Source: Chaetoceros tenuissimus
Taxonomy: Eukaryota > Bacillariophyta > Thalassiosirophyceae > Chaetocerotales > Chaetocerotaceae
Direction: 5' to 3'
DNA: 64,000 nucleotides
NCBI GenBank assembly: GCA_021927905.1
Contig: BLLK01000046.1
Location: 186,001-250,000 of the forward strand
Shown here: positions 1,729-48,584 of the stretch, piece after piece
Position numbering within the stretch: position 1 is the first letter of the stretch
How the letters are laid out: each line of letters starts with the position of its first letter
Made by a program: the position numbers and the translations under genes
The notes under the pieces: model-generated
What the model was told of the DNA's origin: nothing
What the model saw: the letters and a program-made list of their open reading frames with translations, nothing else
Databases searched by the model: none

Positions 1729-4700
1729 CTAATTATATACATCTTCAGTGGAACTAGATCTGAAAGTTGGTAAAGAATTTCGTCGAAGGAAAGAGCATAT
1801 GTTATTCAAACGCAATTCACTGCTTGATCTCGAAATGATGTAATCACAGAAATTCATTGTCTTGTAATCGTTCCCTCGCCTATCAAATTCTTCCTTGATC
1901 GAATTTAAATCTTTCGGATCGACAATCTTAGAGTTACGCACATTTTCAAAGTCATCTCGAGTTATGAAACCGTCGGAATCTTTATCCAAAGCATCAAATA
2001 TCTTTCGGAGAGACGCGTCATTGTTTAGCCAGCCAGCCATGATCGCATCATCATAATGAACTTTCATGTCCCTCTTAAAGCTCATGCGATCTTTGGAAAG
2101 ATGACTTTCTAAGTCATCCAAGAGATAGAAATCATCATCTATATCACCCAGCACATCTGTATTGATTGTGTCTTGGAATACTTGAGGTATTTGCTTTCCA
2201 TGAAAACTTTTGAATCTAAGAACAAAAGTTTTTCTCTCCAATACTTCGTTCTGAATGACTTTCCAGCCTTTGATGGAAGATGTTGGAAGAGGTTTTGCCA
2301 TACCAACGTAGAATTGTTCAAGTGCACTCACAAGCCGAAAACAAAGTCTATTATGAACAGTTTCCAAGTCTAATGTTGTATTGTATATGGAATCAGATGC
2401 AAATATGATTGCGTCCTTGCAGCGAGCAAAGAAATCTTTGCTGCAATCACGCATGCGTTTTGCAAGGCACTTTTTTTCTTCTACAGTCACACGCCGAAGT
2501 GCATCGCTCATTGCACCAGACTTTTGTTGATGATGCCCTTTTGGCATTTCTGAAACACTATAAAGGCAGTTGGAAATGGCACGCATACGCCCATGAAGGC
2601 AAACATACAATCTCGTGAAGATACGACTTCGAATGCTTATATCCTTCACAAACAACAGCACAATTTTGTAGAATTCTCGACCTAGAACTGTTTCGATAAG
2701 TCTCTGAATTCGACCATAACTATCACATATTGTTTTGAATAAATCATCTTTCTGCTGATACAAAGTGAAGTAATTTTCACAACGAGTGACAAATTCCAGA
2801 TATTCCATAAGTCCATCATCATTAGAATCATCAAATATTCCTATTTGATAAGCATGTATCTGAGAGTATACCATTCGGTCGCGACTATGACCGACAACTT
2901 TCCAAAATGAACTACAGTCAGTGCCTGCAACTAGCTGTAGCATGTTACTCCCACCTGGATGCCATGCTATGTAATCTGTAAAATCGTAGCATTTGCCATC
3001 AATCACAGTCCAATAGTCATTCATTTTGTTATGAGTACAAAGTTCTCTGAGATGAACAACCTTTTCACCCCCTTTTCCTTCAATTTCTCCTCTAGCTTGT
3101 ACTTCAAGATTCAATCTCCCATCACGGACAAGTGAGGGTACCATGCTTGGATCTATTTTATCCAAGGTTGCTCGAACAGTAGTGAAGAACTCACTATTGC
3201 CACATATATAGAACGTCGCCTCTCTACCACCATCTTCTATACTCAAAGCTAGATCTTCTAAGAGTTCAGCTTCTTCAATCATCAGTGCATCAATATATCT
3301 TACTCCAGTCTCATTTCTCAATAGCATCCGATTGCGAGACCTTAAACTGATATTTTCACGACTTAGTTCAACAAAGAGGTTCAATTTACCATAGTTGACT
3401 GCATGCTTAAAATGATCGTCGAGAAGAGGAACTGTATGTTCAGTCCGAAATGCGAGAAAAGCGATCTTTGGATTCACAATGCCATCGTTAAAAATCATTG
3501 GAAGATATGTCCCTATCCCCGAGCCTGCTGCAATGACCACAATTGGTCGGGTTTTGATACGAGGAATGACCAAGTTTGCTCCTGTGCTAATACCAAAAGA
3601 GACATCTTTCCCTTCAGACTCGTGAAGAAATGCTGAACAACCTCCTGGGCCTGTATTTCTTACCAACATATCAAATGAATGAATGGCCTTGTCTTCTGGA
3701 TGCAAAGATGCAAACGAATATAAACGGGGTTCTTCCGGCAGCATTTTATGACAGAGATTAGTAATGTCGACCTTCTGATACGTCCCATGGAGTTTGGCAC
3801 ACATGAGTAAATTGTACACAGTGTAGTCGAGTGATTCAAAATCTAACAGTCTCTTCCATGAAGATGTTAAAGTTCCATCATTAAATGACAAGAAAGTGTT
3901 GAGATTCAAATGATGTTTTGTAGAGAATCGCCAAACTTTGTCATCGCTGTTTTTCATAAGGACAGCAATATGGTCGCCAATATTCAGAAAGATTTTCTTT
4001 TTAGACTCGATTGTAATCATTTTTAGATCACGATCCTCACTGACTCTTTTCACCTTACTAATTCGGCCTTGGAAATGGCACATTTCATAAGATCCTCTAT
4101 CGCTAGTCAATGAAAAGTCTCTCTCTACCCTACTATTTTCAAGCATATCAATAACTTCTTCCCCCGATGCCGAACCTTTATTTGATGATCGTCCAAGATT
4201 TTTTGCTAGCTCAATGAATTGATAGGCTCTGTATTTGTGTCTCCCAAGCCAACCGCGATCTCCACAATAACTGTCCTTCAGAAGAACCCATAAATATTCA
4301 AAATCGAAAGGAACATGTTTGTACAACTTTTTCTGTCTCACGTATTCCAAAAATCTCCTCCAGTTTTTTGGCATGTAGTGCTTTGTCAATTGCAAGTCTT
4401 TGCCCATTACAGATCCCCATTCTTGTCTCCCTATCATAGAATCAACAAGAAAAAAGATCGGACAACCAGCCCCAGATAGCGCTGGGACATTACTTTTTAA
4501 AGGAGCTACCGCATTAGCAAACGCAACATTAAATTCGACAGGATCTATACCTTTCTTTCTGTTACTCTCTGGGACAGCATTTCCTAGGGCACGCGTAAAG
4601 TCTTTTATTGTATGTATGATGCAAGAGATGTACTCCACTTTCCATTCGCCACGACAAAGGGCAAGTATGGCATTAAGCATATCTTTCACATAGATATTGG

Positions 4701-5982
4701 ACTCACAGAACAACCTACTCATGATACTCTCAGCTTTCGTTCCATAAATAGGAGTTAGCATCTCACAATTGTCAATCGCAAAATCTTTTCCTTGCGAAGG
4801 CCTTTGATTATACATAAGATCTTCAGCACTCATGTAAATATCCCTCCGACCAAGCCTTCTGCATATATGTGTCAAAGGAATATACAAAGATGGCGTCTCT
4901 GTAAATTCAATGAAATTTCTTTGACATGCAGCTCTATATGCAATCACCAAATGGACTAGAATCGAAGCTGCAATTTGCAAACATTCGTCAGGGCAAGTTT
5001 CTTTACTTCCGTCTAATACTTCCATTTTATCAATTGCTTCAAGAAATTTATTCTGCTTTAAAAGTCCTTGTATCCTCAATCCCATATCATACCAAATGCG
5101 ACCTTCTGAGTTCATAAGCGAATTCAACGCATGATTGTAATCTGGGCAAAGGAAGCCATATTCTCGACTAAAGTACCCATCAACAGATGGATTACCAAAC
5201 AATTCTCTCTCTTCGATCTCTCCTTGAAACTCATTTTCTGCATTGATTTCGGCCATGACTTTCTCTAGAAGATTAGCATTGACTGAAGCAGCTCCTTGGA
5301 ATACAGGACATTTGCCACTCACAAAAGTTTTCTGAAACTTTTCACGTTCAACATTTTTTTTAAGAGTAGTATCAGTTTGAAGTGACATCCTTCTCCCAAT
5401 CTTATTCCGAGAACGTATTTTTCCTAGTTCAAAAGATGAGAGCGCATTCAAACGTGTTTGTTTCATATATGCTTGAACTTTCAACATTCTATCATCTGAA
5501 TCATGTCTTTTGCTATCGTTTTCCTCATGTTGTAGATCCCCATTACCAGAACCAGAAAATGGACATGTTGATTTGTTTCGATCTCCACTAGTGTGTTGCG
5601 GAGGATGGAATTCAATTTCTTTTACACTATGTGGACATGAAATGTTACTACCCAATTCATCTTGACTTGAATTCTCCGATTTTGGTGATAAGAAGGATTC
5701 TTTGAATTGACCAGAATCATTTTCTTGAGAAACATAATTCTCTGAGGTAGGAATTTCCATTATTCTCACCGACTTTGACCGAGAAGATGAAGATGGCCCA
5801 GTTGGAGTCTTTGAGTATGAAGTTGTGCATTCAACTGCATGAGCTTTTCTTGTGTCTGTTTCAAGTTGACCAATATCCCTCGTTGGGAAAGATGATATAC
5901 TACTACTAGCAGCACTGTTGCTACCATTAGGAGAATTTTGCTTTTTGCTCTTTTTCCTTTTATTTCGCAAGGCTTTCAACAT
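1729..5982 (-). CDS. multidomain IDO-like / FAD-NAD(P)H reductase / cytochrome b5 / EF-hand protein
   Basis: A single exon of 1,417 residues from the ATG at 5982 (the frame opens with GTG three codons earlier). Residues 1-220 are disordered. About 265-620 resemble indoleamine 2,3-dioxygenase: SLYIPLTHICRRLG, a GAGCPIFFLVDSMIG block, YMPKNWRRFLEYV, and a His near 582 spaced like the proximal haem ligand (R-H-x7-I). About 630-965 form a cytochrome P450 reductase-like FAD/NAD(P)H module without the FMN domain: RLYSFAS for FAD, GPGGCSAFL, then AAGSGIGTYLPM and ATFYICGNSEFF for the nucleotide. About 985-1055 is a cytochrome b5 domain with the HPGG haem motif. One canonical EF-hand loop (D-K-D-S-D-G-F-I-T-R-D-D) sits near 1333-1344. 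The order suggests electron flow from NAD(P)H through FAD and b5 haem to the dioxygenase-like haem, possibly gated by calcium. That is inference; the substrate is unknown. Confidence 0.75.
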   Translation of the reverse strand: MLKALRNKRKKSKKQNSPNGSNSAASSSISSFPTRDIGQLETDTRKAHAVECTTSYSKTPTGPSSSSRSKSVRIMEIPTSENYVSQENDSGQFKESFLSPKSENSSQDELGSNISCPHSVKEIEFHPPQHTSGDRNKSTCPFSGSGNGDLQHEENDSKRHDSDDRMLKVQAYMKQTRLNALSSFELGKIRSRNKIGRRMSLQTDTTLKKNVEREKFQKTFVSGKCPVFQGAASVNANLLEKVMAEINAENEFQGEIEERELFGNPSVDGYFSREYGFLCPDYNHALNSLMNSEGRIWYDMGLRIQGLLKQNKFLEAIDKMEVLDGSKETCPDECLQIAASILVHLVIAYRAACQRNFIEFTETPSLYIPLTHICRRLGRRDIYMSAEDLMYNQRPSQGKDFAIDNCEMLTPIYGTKAESIMSRLFCESNIYVKDMLNAILALCRGEWKVEYISCIIHTIKDFTRALGNAVPESNRKKGIDPVEFNVAFANAVAPLKSNVPALSGAGCPIFFLVDSMIGRQEWGSVMGKDLQLTKHYMPKNWRRFLEYVRQKKLYKHVPFDFEYLWVLLKDSYCGDRGWLGRHKYRAYQFIELAKNLGRSSNKGSASGEEVIDMLENSRVERDFSLTSDRGSYEMCHFQGRISKVKRVSEDRDLKMITIESKKKIFLNIGDHIAVLMKNSDDKVWRFSTKHHLNLNTFLSFNDGTLTSSWKRLLDFESLDYTVYNLLMCAKLHGTYQKVDITNLCHKMLPEEPRLYSFASLHPEDKAIHSFDMLVRNTGPGGCSAFLHESEGKDVSFGISTGANLVIPRIKTRPIVVIAAGSGIGTYLPMIFNDGIVNPKIAFLAFRTEHTVPLLDDHFKHAVNYGKLNLFVELSRENISLRSRNRMLLRNETGVRYIDALMIEEAELLEDLALSIEDGGREATFYICGNSEFFTTVRATLDKIDPSMVPSLVRDGRLNLEVQARGEIEGKGGEKVVHLRELCTHNKMNDYWTVIDGKCYDFTDYIAWHPGGSNMLQLVAGTDCSSFWKVVGHSRDRMVYSQIHAYQIGIFDDSNDDGLMEYLEFVTRCENYFTLYQQKDDLFKTICDSYGRIQRLIETVLGREFYKIVLLFVKDISIRSRIFTRLYVCLHGRMRAISNCLYSVSEMPKGHHQQKSGAMSDALRRVTVEEKKCLAKRMRDCSKDFFARCKDAIIFASDSIYNTTLDLETVHNRLCFRLVSALEQFYVGMAKPLPTSSIKGWKVIQNEVLERKTFVLRFKSFHGKQIPQVFQDTINTDVLGDIDDDFYLLDDLESHLSKDRMSFKRDMKVHYDDAIMAGWLNNDASLRKIFDALDKDSDGFITRDDFENVRNSKIVDPKDLNSIKEEFDRRGNDYKTMNFCDYIISRSSSELRLNNICSFLRRNSLPTFRSSSTEDVYN

Positions 5983-6420
5983 TCTAAACACACTATTTGA
6001 AGAACGGACGTGTCAAATGGAATATTAATAATTTGCTATCCGAGGAATAGAATAGAGCCATTTTAGATTTCATCACACTTCTTCATCACTTTTCTTGTTT
6101 TTAGTTTTCTTAGTTGGGTCTTTCAACAAAGCGTACGTACTTATTTCAGTAGGATGGAGCCACACATTTAATAAAAATTCTGGTATCTACCTAGCCGATA
6201 GGGATATTCAAATGTGGGAAAGCCAAAAGTTGACGTGGCGAAGATGAAGATAAAATGGGCCCAATGTTCAAAAAAATGTGCAGCAGTTTCCCGTTCAAAA
6301 GCATATCTGCATGCGCATGATATGGGGATGCATTATTATTGAAAAGTCTGAAGCAGCTCATAAATGAGGAAGTTTATGTCGAACAACTAGTTTGCCGTTT
6401 GCCCACAAAAAAACCTATCA
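5983..6420. other. divergent promoter region
   Basis: About 440 bp between two divergently transcribed genes. It holds the palindrome GTACGTAC at 6133..6140 and TTGACGTGG near 6231. No coding frame or RNA was seen. Confidence 0.5.
6133..6140. promoter_or_regulatory. TACGTAC palindrome in divergent promoter
   Basis: Perfect palindrome GTACGTAC about 150 bp upstream of the IDO-fusion start and 280 bp upstream of the plastid membrane protein. It is one of several TACGTAC-core sites in divergent intergenic regions of this window. A regulatory role is inferred from placement only. Confidence 0.3.
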
Positions 6421-7704
6421 ATGAAGTTAAAAACTAACCTGATCGAAATTATCGCCCTACTGTCTTGCTTTCAGTGCTCTCTTGTGGCTTCTTTCAGTCC
6501 TCTATCCAAAAAAGTTATCAAATTTCCAAGTTTAGAGAAGAATCAAGTCGATATTGCCACCCCTACAGCAAGAAGTCCCATTCAAACAGTAACCAGCACT
6601 TCTCCCTCTCGCCTTTATGCATCAATCTGTGATGAGAAACTTTCAGACATGCAAAGTACACCTCCAGATGGAGAATCTACAGCCTTTACAAAGCTGAAAC
6701 ACATTGGATATGTGGTTGTTTTCACCTTTTGGTGGTACCTTTTTTCATGGTAAGTGGTAATGAAAGCTATACATCATTTCAGTAAAAGTTGAATCATTTA
6801 TTCATTTCAAAACTGACGAAATCATAATATTTTTAGTTATGAATTCTTTGCAGAGCCAAAAGATTTCTTTGGCATCGAAGGCAATCTTTATACTGCACTT
6901 GCAGCATATGTTCCAATGTCTCAACTCTTTACTTATGGCTTTCTTTGGAAATTAATGAATGCCAACACATTAAGAGGGGGACAATTTTGGATCGTTCTCT
7001 GTATTCTCTTTTGTGTTCCAGCAGACAGTATTATTGTTCTATTTGACCCAACTGCAGAAAAAGCTCTTACAGTTTTAGCATTTACACTTGTGACTATTGT
7101 TTATGGAGTACTTCTTTCATATTATCTACGAAGAGCAGCAGAAAGAGAAGTTGGTACCTGTCTTTCACTACTAGAGGAGCCAGATAATAATGGAGTTTGG
7201 GATGAGATTGTGAACTATCGTCCACCAGTCGATATTCAGAATACATACATGTCGACAGATTTTGCACGAGCATTTGCTGCCTTTGTAGTGACACTTGCTG
7301 CTATTCGTGATGAACTCAATTTAGAGGAGTCATCAATTGACCAAAACTTTTTGCCTTTGTATTTTGCATCGTTGAGCTTGATCGTAGCACATTCAGCTTG
7401 GGATATGTCTGTAACTACCTTGTTACCTGGAATCCAATTGAACAAGTACAGATCATATCTTTGGATCCTTTTCTGGGTAAATTTCGTCGAGCTTTTTGCT
7501 TCGAGCGCGATTTCTACCTACGCCATTGCGGAAGATGCAAATTTCTTTGATGATCTAACATATAGTTTCCTTTTTGGAAATGCCGCAGCCGCCTTTGCGG
7601 ATAATGTTTCCGCTCTTTCAGAAGGGATTGACTTTGACGAGATGATTGACTTTAAATCTGTATCGGTTTCACGTCAAAACGAAAGTGAAGAGTGCGAGGT
7701 TTAG
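6421..7704 (+). CDS. plastid-targeted multi-pass membrane protein, unknown function
   Basis: Two exons, 6421..6749 and 6837..7704, with an 87-nt GTAAGT...TTTTAG intron joined in phase 2, give 398 residues. The N-terminus is a hydrophobic signal peptide (LIEIIALLSCFQCSLVA) followed by SFSPLSKK, a serine/lysine-rich region with Phe near the cleavage point. This matches the bipartite presequence of complex plastids. The mature part has about six to eight membrane segments, starting with GYVVVFTFWWYLFSC and including FWIVLCILFCVPADSIIVLF. The C-terminal tail is acidic. An Asn-Thr-Tyr-Met-Ser segment and an Arg-Asp-Glu-Leu segment lie in the central loop. I do not recognise the family. Location in an inner plastid or thylakoid membrane is likely but inferred. 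Confidence 0.75.
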
Positions 7705-22506: not shown

Positions 22507-23400
22507 TCAAATTGTAGGAGTTTGTTGCCTTCGTGGTTTACTTTTTCTCTTGAATTTGTTGAAAAAGTTTTTGGCAAATGAATTGGAGCTAGAAAAGTTT
22601 TCCTGACTAGATGCACTGTCTAACTTGGAAAGAATGCTCCTGCTCTGTGTGCTTTGTACTGTGTAATTGTTTACATTTGCAGTAGACATATATTTTCTTT
22701 CATGTGCAGAACAAATGCTACTGTTCCTTGATTTGAGATATTCTTTGACTTGACGGGAAGAGTTCCTTGATCGACCTTTGTCAATACATATTACTCCTCC
22801 ATCCTCCTTTTTCATGAATGATAGAGTTTCTTTTATTTCTTTTTGAATGAAATAGCTGTTAGTAACCGGAAATTCAGGATAAAAGACTACATAAAAACAA
22901 ATGGACTTACTCAATTCATCCAGAAGAGACACCAATTGATTTAATCGCTTTCCATTAATAAAATCGTGGTTTTCCTCTAAGGACTCTAGTTCTTCCTCTA
23001 TTACACTGCTTCCGTGATGCTCATCAAAAGCTTTGATCGCAATTATAAAACGCCTTTTTGATTCAGCGATGAATCTCTTCAAATTGGAAATAGATTTGCG
23101 GATTTCTTTTTCAATCATGAGAATTATTTTGAGGTCATCTTGGTCGTGACTCTCCTCTAACTCATCCTGCTCCGCCATTATTCTCTTGAAACATTTCTTA
23201 ATATGGGAGGTAATTTGTACTAGCTTCCGCTCTTCGTCATGATAAAAGTAATGGAAATTATCCAGTTGACATTGTAATATTGTAAAGAATGTCTGTTTGT
23301 ATCGTAATGAATTGTCGGTTGTTAAGAAGTCTACATCGATGCCGTTCTCTTTATGTGTTTCTTCACCATACTCATGCTGCTTGGAAGAGAACACATTCAT
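22507..23400 (-). CDS. hypothetical protein, weakly SPX-like (paralogue B)
   Basis: Paralogue of the gene at 35..912. Matching blocks include KENGIDVDFLTTDNSLRYKQ, ILQCQLDNFHYFYHDEERK, FDEHHGSSVIEEELESL and FINGKRLNQLVSLLDEL. The frame is open for 297 codons, but a 72-nt segment (22839..22910) has donor GTAAGT, a TTACTAAC branch-like site and a TTCAAAAAG acceptor at the position and phase of the paralogue's intron. Removing it keeps the frame and gives 273 residues with better alignment (TLSFMKKEDGGVICIDKGR against TLGIAANDTIVCIERER). Exons would be 22911..23400 and 22507..22838. The tail is basic (FFNKFKRKSKPRRQ). Helical composition with FYHDEERK is faintly SPX-like; function is unknown. 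Confidence 0.7.
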   Translation of the reverse strand: MNVFSSKQHEYGEETHKENGIDVDFLTTDNSLRYKQTFFTILQCQLDNFHYFYHDEERKLVQITSHIKKCFKRIMAEQDELEESHDQDDLKIILMIEKEIRKSISNLKRFIAESKRRFIIAIKAFDEHHGSSVIEEELESLEENHDFINGKRLNQLVSLLDELSKSICFYVVFYPEFPVTNSYFIQKEIKETLSFMKKEDGGVICIDKGRSRNSSRQVKEYLKSRNSSICSAHERKYMSTANVNNYTVQSTQSRSILSKLDSASSQENFSSSNSFAKNFFNKFKRKSKPRRQQTPTI

Positions 23401-23920
23401 ATTTTGCCCTCTATTATGTTACTCGGTGTAATGTGATTCTACTCGTATAATGTAAGAATACTTCTTATGAAGTAGAGTAGTTATCAGAATATTGCTGTCA
23501 GAATACCGCGTGGGCTTCTTAGCGGAATGCATACAAAGACAGTGGGCTTCTGAGGTGATTCCCTATGTCAAGTCAAACACTTTTTGATGGACGAGGTTGA
23601 AAGGCAGAAAGGATCGTAGGAACGTTCCCAATGAAAGAAGGAAGGAGGAATTCCTATTGATACAAAAGTACGTACCTACCTGTTACTCAGGAATGGGGTA
23701 TCAAAACAGGGACATTTCGACATTTCGTGTTTTTATCCTTCTTGGGTTGGTATTTTCAATTTGAAAAACAGAACACTTTTTGTTCCTTTTTCCTCGGAGT
23801 TGCACGTTGCACGTCTACGTAATCTTTTTCTTCTTTTCTTTCTGAGAAAGAATGCAATACAAATTGGAACTGAAAACAAACAGAATTGTATCTCTCTCTA
23901 GGTGTCTACTATAACTGAAG
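23401..23920. other. divergent promoter region
   Basis: About 520 bp between SPX-like paralogue B and the GH5 gene, with GTACGTACC at 23668..23676. No gene was seen. Confidence 0.5.
23668..23676. promoter_or_regulatory. TACGTAC element in divergent promoter
   Basis: GTACGTACC lies midway between two divergent starts, about 250 bp upstream of the glucanase. It is a member of the recurring motif set; function inferred. Confidence 0.3.
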
Positions 23921-48501: not shown

Positions 48502-48584
48502 TGCATCGAGTGGGATTCGAACCCACGAGTACGAGTACACTGCAACTTGAGTGCAGCCCCTTAGACCAGCTCGGGCATCGATGC
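48502..48584 (-). tRNA. trnL-CAA: tRNA-Leu(CAA)
   Basis: Full cloverleaf of 83 nt on the minus strand. The 7-bp acceptor stem is GCATCGA/TCGATGC with discriminator A. The D arm holds TGCCCGAGCTGG (A box). The anticodon stem CTGCA/TGCAG encloses loop CTCAAGT, giving anticodon CAA for codon UUG. A long class-II variable arm (TGTACTCGTACTC) is as expected for leucine. The T arm GTGGG-TTCGAAT-CCCAC doubles as the B box. A T5 run at 48492..48496 just downstream fits RNA polymerase III termination. No intron and no encoded CCA. Confidence 0.96.

Follow-up and report, generated by a model that had tools for sequence, protein, structure and literature searches.

An IDO-type haem domain fused to a flavin reductase and cytochrome b5 in a diatom: a candidate self-sufficient haem oxygenase

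Could an IDO-type haem domain and the machinery that reduces its iron be encoded in one polypeptide? The question is raised by a long open frame in a 64,000-nucleotide stretch of the diatom Chaetoceros tenuissimus (contig BLLK01000046.1, positions 186,001 to 250,000 of the forward strand; hereafter the window), whose product appears to consist of an IDO-type haem domain, a flavin reductase module and a cytochrome b5, in this order. Activation of human IDO1 by cytochrome b5 and NADPH-P450 reductase has been described (Maghzal 2008, Vottero 2006 and Pearson 2010, cited in PMC13142367), and the accessible text of PMC13142367 calls the in vivo operation of the known IDO reduction systems still unclear. 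On the strength of sequence comparisons, we propose that the window protein is probably a self-sufficient haem oxygenase that combines a His ligand with an IDO scaffold.

Reading frame, module order and paralogues

The original prediction described a single uninterrupted frame at 1729-5982 and left its strand unstated. The frame is there, and it lies on the minus strand, where it runs without a stop from 6012 to 1732; frame 1 of the plus strand, in the same coordinates, has stops throughout. The first ATG, at 5982, opens a protein of 1417 amino acids (aa), whose residues are numbered from this Met. Its features are the following.

1732-5982, minus strand: open reading frame, 1417 aa, intronless; stop codon at 1729-1731
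5272-5982, minus strand: N-terminal region, aa 1-237, no Pfam family (aa 1-222 scanned)
4099-5271, minus strand: IDO-type haem domain, aa 238-628, edges approximate (Pfam, paralogue alignment, PDB profile, hhalign)
4708-4710, minus strand: codon of F425, opposite the distal His of six bacterial IDOs (alignments)
4516-4518, minus strand: codon of A489, opposite an Arg invariant in six bacterial IDOs (alignments)
4237-4239, minus strand: codon of H582, predicted proximal haem ligand (invariant His, MAFFT and hhalign)
3061-4098, minus strand: flavin reductase module, aa 629-974, edges approximate (motifs, weak profiles)
3706-3726, minus strand: RLYSFAS motif, aa 753-759, of the flavin adenine dinucleotide (FAD) part
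3625-3645, minus strand: GGCSAFL motif, aa 780-786, of the FAD part
3499-3531, minus strand: AAGSGIGTYLP motif of the NAD(P)H part (AAGSGIG from aa 818)
3187-3210, minus strand: YICGNSEF motif of the NAD(P)H part (YICG from aa 925)
2827-3057, minus strand: cytochrome b5 domain, aa 976-1052 (Pfam, PDB cytochromes b5)
2950-2961, minus strand: HPGG motif of the b5 domain, aa 1008-1011
2023-2826, minus strand: C-terminal region, aa 1053-1320, no Pfam family
1942-2010, minus strand: EF-hand under Pfam cut-offs, with loop DKDSDGFITRDD at 1951-1986
1849-1884, minus strand: degenerate stretch next to the EF-hand, judged by eye

A search of the whole genome (41.0 Mb in 68 contigs, the window being C33:186001-250000) with the window protein and the IDO profile listed two further IDO genes.

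C34:3495300-3502400: L008, IDO-reductase-b5 order, joined exons 1472 aa
C34:3310900-3318200: L009, IDO-reductase-b5 order, joined exons 1469 aa

All three genes of the genome thus share one module order. The window protein aligns with the paralogues at about 25% identity over 468-470 aa (expectation value, E, 4e-30 to 7e-30) and, in a second stretch, at 23% over 313-314 aa (E 6e-14 to 1e-13). Pfam scans of the L008 and L009 exons returned IDO (9.2e-22 and 1.8e-20), Cyt-b5 (4.2e-13 and 4.2e-12), FAD_binding_1 just under its cut-off (2.9e-7 and 3.1e-7) and NAD_binding_1 under its cut-off (0.028 and 0.085). In both paralogues, the first exon stops inside the NAD domain and is followed by a predicted GT-AG intron (70 nucleotides in L008, 65 in L009), which interrupts the AAGSGI motif between AAG and SGI. 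Because this predicted intron cuts through the NAD domain, the modules on either side belong to one gene rather than several, in keeping with the original prediction. The presence of two paralogues with the same order argues against an artefact, and the predicted IDO-reductase-b5 fusion is upheld. L008 and L009 lie about 190 kb apart on one contig, and their introns differ in length. They look like the outcome of a fairly recent duplication, because they are 90% identical and share that contig.

The haem site and the electron-transfer modules

As for the haem domain, the window protein matches the Pfam family IDO (PF01231) at 2.9e-8 and 33.4 bits, over the cut-off of 26, and the paralogues reach 77.8 and 73.5 bits; the best stretch spans profile positions 8-157 in the window protein or 8-210 in the paralogues, of 412. 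When an alignment of the three genes was the query, the PDB profile match was IDO2 (2.6e-8). Bacterial sequences for comparison came from a search with a stretch of human IDO2, which found one stand-alone bacterial IDO, and from 398 genomes of that bacterium's phylum (itself included), eight of which have an IDO match, seven over the cut-off. There were nine bacterial match rows. L011 is the same gene as L010; L017 and L019 (split frame) and L018 (under cut-off) were left out. The resulting nine-sequence MAFFT alignment holds the three diatom genes and six bacterial IDOs (L010 and five others), and an hhalign comparison with these six gives a probability of 95.8 and an E of 6.5e-9. Seven His residues are present in the window IDO domain, and just one, H582, is common to all nine sequences, in which it is the sole invariant His. 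It sits in the pairing of LGRHKYRAY with TRHLEYAAS, and hhalign pairs the same residues. By comparison with the bacterial IDOs, H582 is therefore the predicted proximal haem ligand, and both the IDO relationship and the proximal His, as first proposed, are supported.

The rest of the pocket departs from the bacterial pattern. At the distal position, which we take to correspond to S167 of human IDO1, the six bacterial IDOs have a His and all three diatom genes a Phe (F425 in the window protein). Two adjacent columns hold an invariant Arg in these six but A/T/T and A/A/A in the three diatom genes; the Arg opposite A489 is presumably the equivalent of R231 of human IDO1, which binds the carboxylate of tryptophan. 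In the alignments, the bacterial stretch HRVRPWIHGW that carries this Arg faces KTVAPVGVSF in L008 and VAFANAVAPL in the window protein. The loop preceding the SG.G.P motif is also about 20 residues shorter in the diatom genes. With neither the carboxylate-binding Arg nor the distal residue kept, the substrate is probably not tryptophan.

A tentative match to the IDO fold, which the original prediction expected of the window domain, was obtained for the paralogue L008 and not for the window's own domain, whose model is poor. The L008 domain was modelled from an alignment of L008, L009, the window protein and one bacterial IDO. In a Foldseek search, the best 50 of the 122 matches with E<=0.001 were all human IDO (E 2.8e-5 to 1.8e-4, probability 1.00, template modelling (TM) score by query length 0.35-0.47). 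With VIA-align, the best 50 rows were all IDO1 or IDO2 (Z 14.8-16.0, 286-316 residues, root-mean-square deviation (rmsd) 7.3-7.8), led by an IDO2 structure with a Z of 16.0, 306 aligned residues and an rmsd of 7.4.

The reductase module is recognised primarily by its motifs. An RxYS motif, an NAD(P)H glycine motif and a CG motif occur in order, which is the signature of FNR-like FAD/NAD(P)H reductases. Profile matches are weak: FAD_binding_6 gave 0.004 and 17.9 bits (cut-off 21.1) in a scan of the module apart, NCBIfam BenC gave 1.4e-5, far below its cut-off, and FAD_binding_1 scores 12.2 bits in the window protein and 30.7 and 30.6 in the paralogues, against a cut-off of 32.3. The best PDB match is the sulfite reductase flavoprotein 1ddg (E 0.032), in an alignment that passes through PRLYSFAS, GGCSAFL and AAGSGIG; the other matches include ferredoxin-NADP reductases (0.04-0.8) and a small number of further proteins. 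The proximal His and the first motif of the FAD part are 86 residues apart in the window gene and in L008 alike; the distance from that motif to RxYS is longer in L008 (204 residues) than in the window gene (85). The paralogues may thus keep a P450-reductase-like connecting insert that is mostly lost in the window gene. No Flavodoxin match, the mark of a flavin mononucleotide (FMN) domain, was found in the window protein at E<=10, nor Flavodoxin_1 in the paralogue exons at E<=1, while nitric oxide synthase (NOS) frames of the same genome give 1.3e-20 or better. A fused FAD/NAD(P)H module lacking the FMN domain, as originally described, is what the motifs and the missing Flavodoxin match indicate.

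Downstream, Cyt-b5 (PF00173) is matched at 2.8e-13 and 50.1 bits, over a cut-off of 23.7. Both haem-ligating His residues, H1008 of the HPGG motif and H1032, are present, and the best of the solved cytochromes b5 in the PDB matches at 6.8e-10, so that the proposed cytochrome b5 holds.

The same cannot be said of the canonical EF-hand. One EF-hand-like loop is present, scoring under threshold: EF-hand_6 gives 1.4e-4 and 21.8 bits (cut-off 25), and EF-hand models overall give 18.5-22.2 bits against cut-offs of 25-30, or 20.5-24.8 when the C-terminus is scanned alone. The loop DKDSDGFITRDD keeps most ligands but has an Asp, not a Glu, at position 12 in the standard EF-hand numbering, and its potential partner stretch looks degenerate by eye. 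No EF-hand was listed in a Pfam scan of the exons of either paralogue. Consequently, calcium control would not be a family trait and has become a weak proposal, although a calcium role limited to the window isoform is possible. The C-terminal region shows no detectable similarity to the C-termini of the paralogues (hhalign probability 0.3). At the other end, the N-terminal region has three Cys-Pro motifs, NISCPH, KSTCPF and SGKCPV; the SGKCPVFQG stretch is one that we take to resemble a haem-regulatory motif. The window protein has six Cys-Pro pairs, these three included, and each paralogue has one.

Proposed mechanism and competing readings

In a self-sufficient haem oxygenase of this design, NAD(P)H would reduce the FAD of the reductase module, and FAD would hand single electrons to the b5, which perhaps replaces the absent FMN domain as one-electron carrier. 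The b5 would in turn reduce the ferric IDO haem to its O2-binding ferrous form. The built-in chain would thereby stand in for the cytochrome b5 and P450 reductase that, as separate proteins, are reported to activate human IDO1. Less surely, the substrate would be a compound other than tryptophan, and the EF-hand of the window copy may add calcium sensitivity. Such a relay through b5 to the IDO haem is plausible. IDO dioxygenation needs no net electrons, so the attached supply hints at electron-consuming chemistry (monooxygenation or NO dioxygenation); we infer that it suits an electron-consuming monooxygenation at least as well as a dioxygenase with one priming electron. Tentatively, and as the bolder and distinctly less probable form of this reading, the fusion could represent a new class of self-sufficient monooxygenases, with a His-ligated haem on an IDO scaffold run like P450 BM3 via an FAD reductase and b5, acting on a non-tryptophan substrate in diatoms and including a calcium-responsive isoform.

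Several points weigh against the self-sufficient oxygenase. The model of the window IDO domain is poor (predicted local distance difference test (pLDDT) 40.8, predicted TM score (pTM) 0.33); its five best VIA-align rows are not IDO (Z 5.7-4.8), and the many IDO1 rows that come next (Z about 4.3-4.8, rmsd mostly near 9) are not usable. The L008 model is itself of low confidence (pLDDT 55.6, pTM 0.53, TM scores below 0.5), and the bacterial IDO in its alignment may pull it towards the IDO fold. Reductase profile scores stay under the Pfam cut-offs in all three genes. The active-site mapping comes from alignments at just 17-21% identity; despite this, the missing Arg would hardly depend on the register, because there is no Arg in a 40-aa stretch around the motif in L008 and a single one in 35 aa of the window protein, ahead of the motif. 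A homologue outside this genome was not obtained in narrow scans of viral and prokaryote contigs for short conserved stretches, this genome being the sole eukaryote covered. Finally, according to the accessible text of PMC11791213, neither cytochrome b5 nor P450 reductase activates PrnB, a member of the same superfamily; the two are therefore not partners of every superfamily member.

The alternative that survives best, unlikely as we judge it, is a nitric oxide (NO) dioxygenase or an NO/nitrite haem protein. Its ferrous IDO-fold haem would bind O2 and consume cellular NO, and the reductase-b5 tail would re-reduce the ferric haem, on the model of flavohaemoglobin, whose reductase does just that, and perhaps also of nitrate reductases fused with 2/2 haemoglobin. 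Continuous haem re-reduction fits NO dioxygenation, and NO is likely made, given at least three copies of animal-type NOS in the genome with oxygenase (7.7e-107 or better), flavodoxin, FAD and NAD domains in the three of four NOS-like frames that the domain scan covered.

C16:1642500-1647500: NOS (L020), 1181 aa scanned
C34:915200-920200: NOS (L021), 1190 aa scanned
C34:3948500-3953500: NOS (L022), 1172 aa scanned
C34:3974668-3974820: fourth NOS-like candidate

The accessible text of PMC4648414 notes NOS genes in diatoms, with two transcripts in many centric species, and that of PMC6128913 describes a nitrate reductase-haemoglobin fusion in a raphidophyte alga. However, a direct link between the window protein and NO is lacking, the one globin match in the genome (a 135-aa frame) could do the same job, and aromatic compounds are given as the substrates of the IDO superfamily (PMC11791213, available text).

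A self-reducing tryptophan or indole dioxygenase, the enzyme originally proposed, making N-formylkynurenine or another indole product, fares slightly worse and is improbable. The IDO profile match, the proximal His and the published activation of IDO1 by b5 and P450 reductase speak for it, but in all three genes the carboxylate Arg is absent and the distal residue is Phe, and the kynurenine route looks absent. TDO has no match in the genome (its profile matched in 2 of 14 control genomes; a missing match in this genome is in any case no proof of absence), and quinolinate synthase (NadA) is present; 3-HAO is also unmatched, a result that shows nothing, the control being silent too. According to the accessible text of PMC4217691, NAD synthesis in diatoms seems to follow the aspartate route, and very low rates are found for the characterised IDOs of two out of three main branches. 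Together, the missing TDO match, the quinolinate synthase and this aspartate route make a role in the kynurenine pathway unlikely; the kynurenine pathway to NAD was rejected on the same grounds.

We regard it as more doubtful still that the protein is a redox or gas sensor or a pseudo-enzyme, in which the IDO-fold domain would bind haem or O2 and catalyse little, the reductase and b5 would set its redox state, and the EF-hand and Cys-Pro motifs would serve as inputs. The greater divergence of the window IDO domain (its Pfam score is less than half those of the paralogues), the six Cys-Pro pairs (a number reached by none of 5000 residue shuffles) and the confinement of the EF-hand to one copy of the three would suit a sensor, yet the electron-transfer motifs are retained, which a pure sensor would not need. 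The joining of adjacent genes by the assembly, or by read-through of an unrecognised intron that a long intronless frame could conceal in a genome with short introns, has next to no likelihood, since separate genes or an assembly artefact are ruled out by the two intron-bearing paralogues of the same module order, in which the predicted intron splits the NAD domain, and since the frame has 1427 codons without a stop, against at most 220 for any frame obtained by shuffling the window 20 times.

Other features of the window, whose GC content is about 0.39, include a divergently transcribed neighbour and a tRNA gene.

6391-7704, plus strand: neighbouring gene read in two frames; judged by eye, its N-terminus is targeting-like and some stretches are membrane-like, and the second frame matches no Pfam family
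48502-48584, minus strand: tRNA gene

The tRNA gene perhaps has a small intron, because it spans 83 nucleotides against a 71-position model. The predicted proteins at 388-978 and 22507-23418, both on the minus strand, belong to one unnamed family (36% identity over 163 aa, E 1.6e-30); the only Pfam match of that at 388-978, to SIP1 (0.009), is sub-threshold.

Comparison with known systems

No description of this fusion, an IDO-superfamily haem domain in what would be a self-sufficient redox chain, was met among the IDO papers that the literature searches listed, although it may be recorded in domain-architecture databases. A natural fusion of this kind would be an evolutionary answer to the question of what reduces IDO, and a ready test enzyme. 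With it, the His-ligated haem oxygenases would come to include self-sufficient enzymes, and diatoms would have an unassigned oxygenase family separate from the kynurenine pathway. The superfamily of His-ligated, haem-dependent aromatic oxygenases lists TDO, PrnB, TyrH, SfmD and MarE (PMC11791213, available text). The diatom protein resembles this superfamily and IDO1/IDO2 (PF01231) in its over-cut-off profile match, its predicted proximal His and the top fold matches of the low-confidence paralogue model. It differs from IDO1/IDO2 in being fused to a reductase and a b5 and in not keeping the substrate Arg and distal residue. The bacterial IDOs found here are stand-alone: among the eight genomes with a match, none has the fusion in one frame, and open frames do not exceed 435 aa. 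As for the system that activates human IDO1, the partner types are the same, but in the diatom they are part of one chain and the reductase has no FMN domain.

In Ncb5or, too, a single polypeptide joins b5 and FAD/NAD modules to another redox domain. The same holds for nitrate reductase and, in the accessible text of PMC6128913, for the raphidophyte NR2-2/2HbN. The diatom order, IDO-FAD-NAD-b5, is unlike that of all three, there is no molybdenum domain, and the reductase of the paralogues is nearer to the P450-reductase/sulfite-reductase type.

In self-sufficient P450s of the P450 BM3 type and in flavohaemoglobin, a haem domain is followed by its own flavin reductase. The diatom protein shares this arrangement with them and with NOS, whose order of haem domain then reductase is seen in the NOS frames of this very genome. 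It differs from all of these in having an IDO-type haem domain with a predicted His ligand and, if the relay runs as proposed, a b5 in place of FMN as the one-electron carrier.

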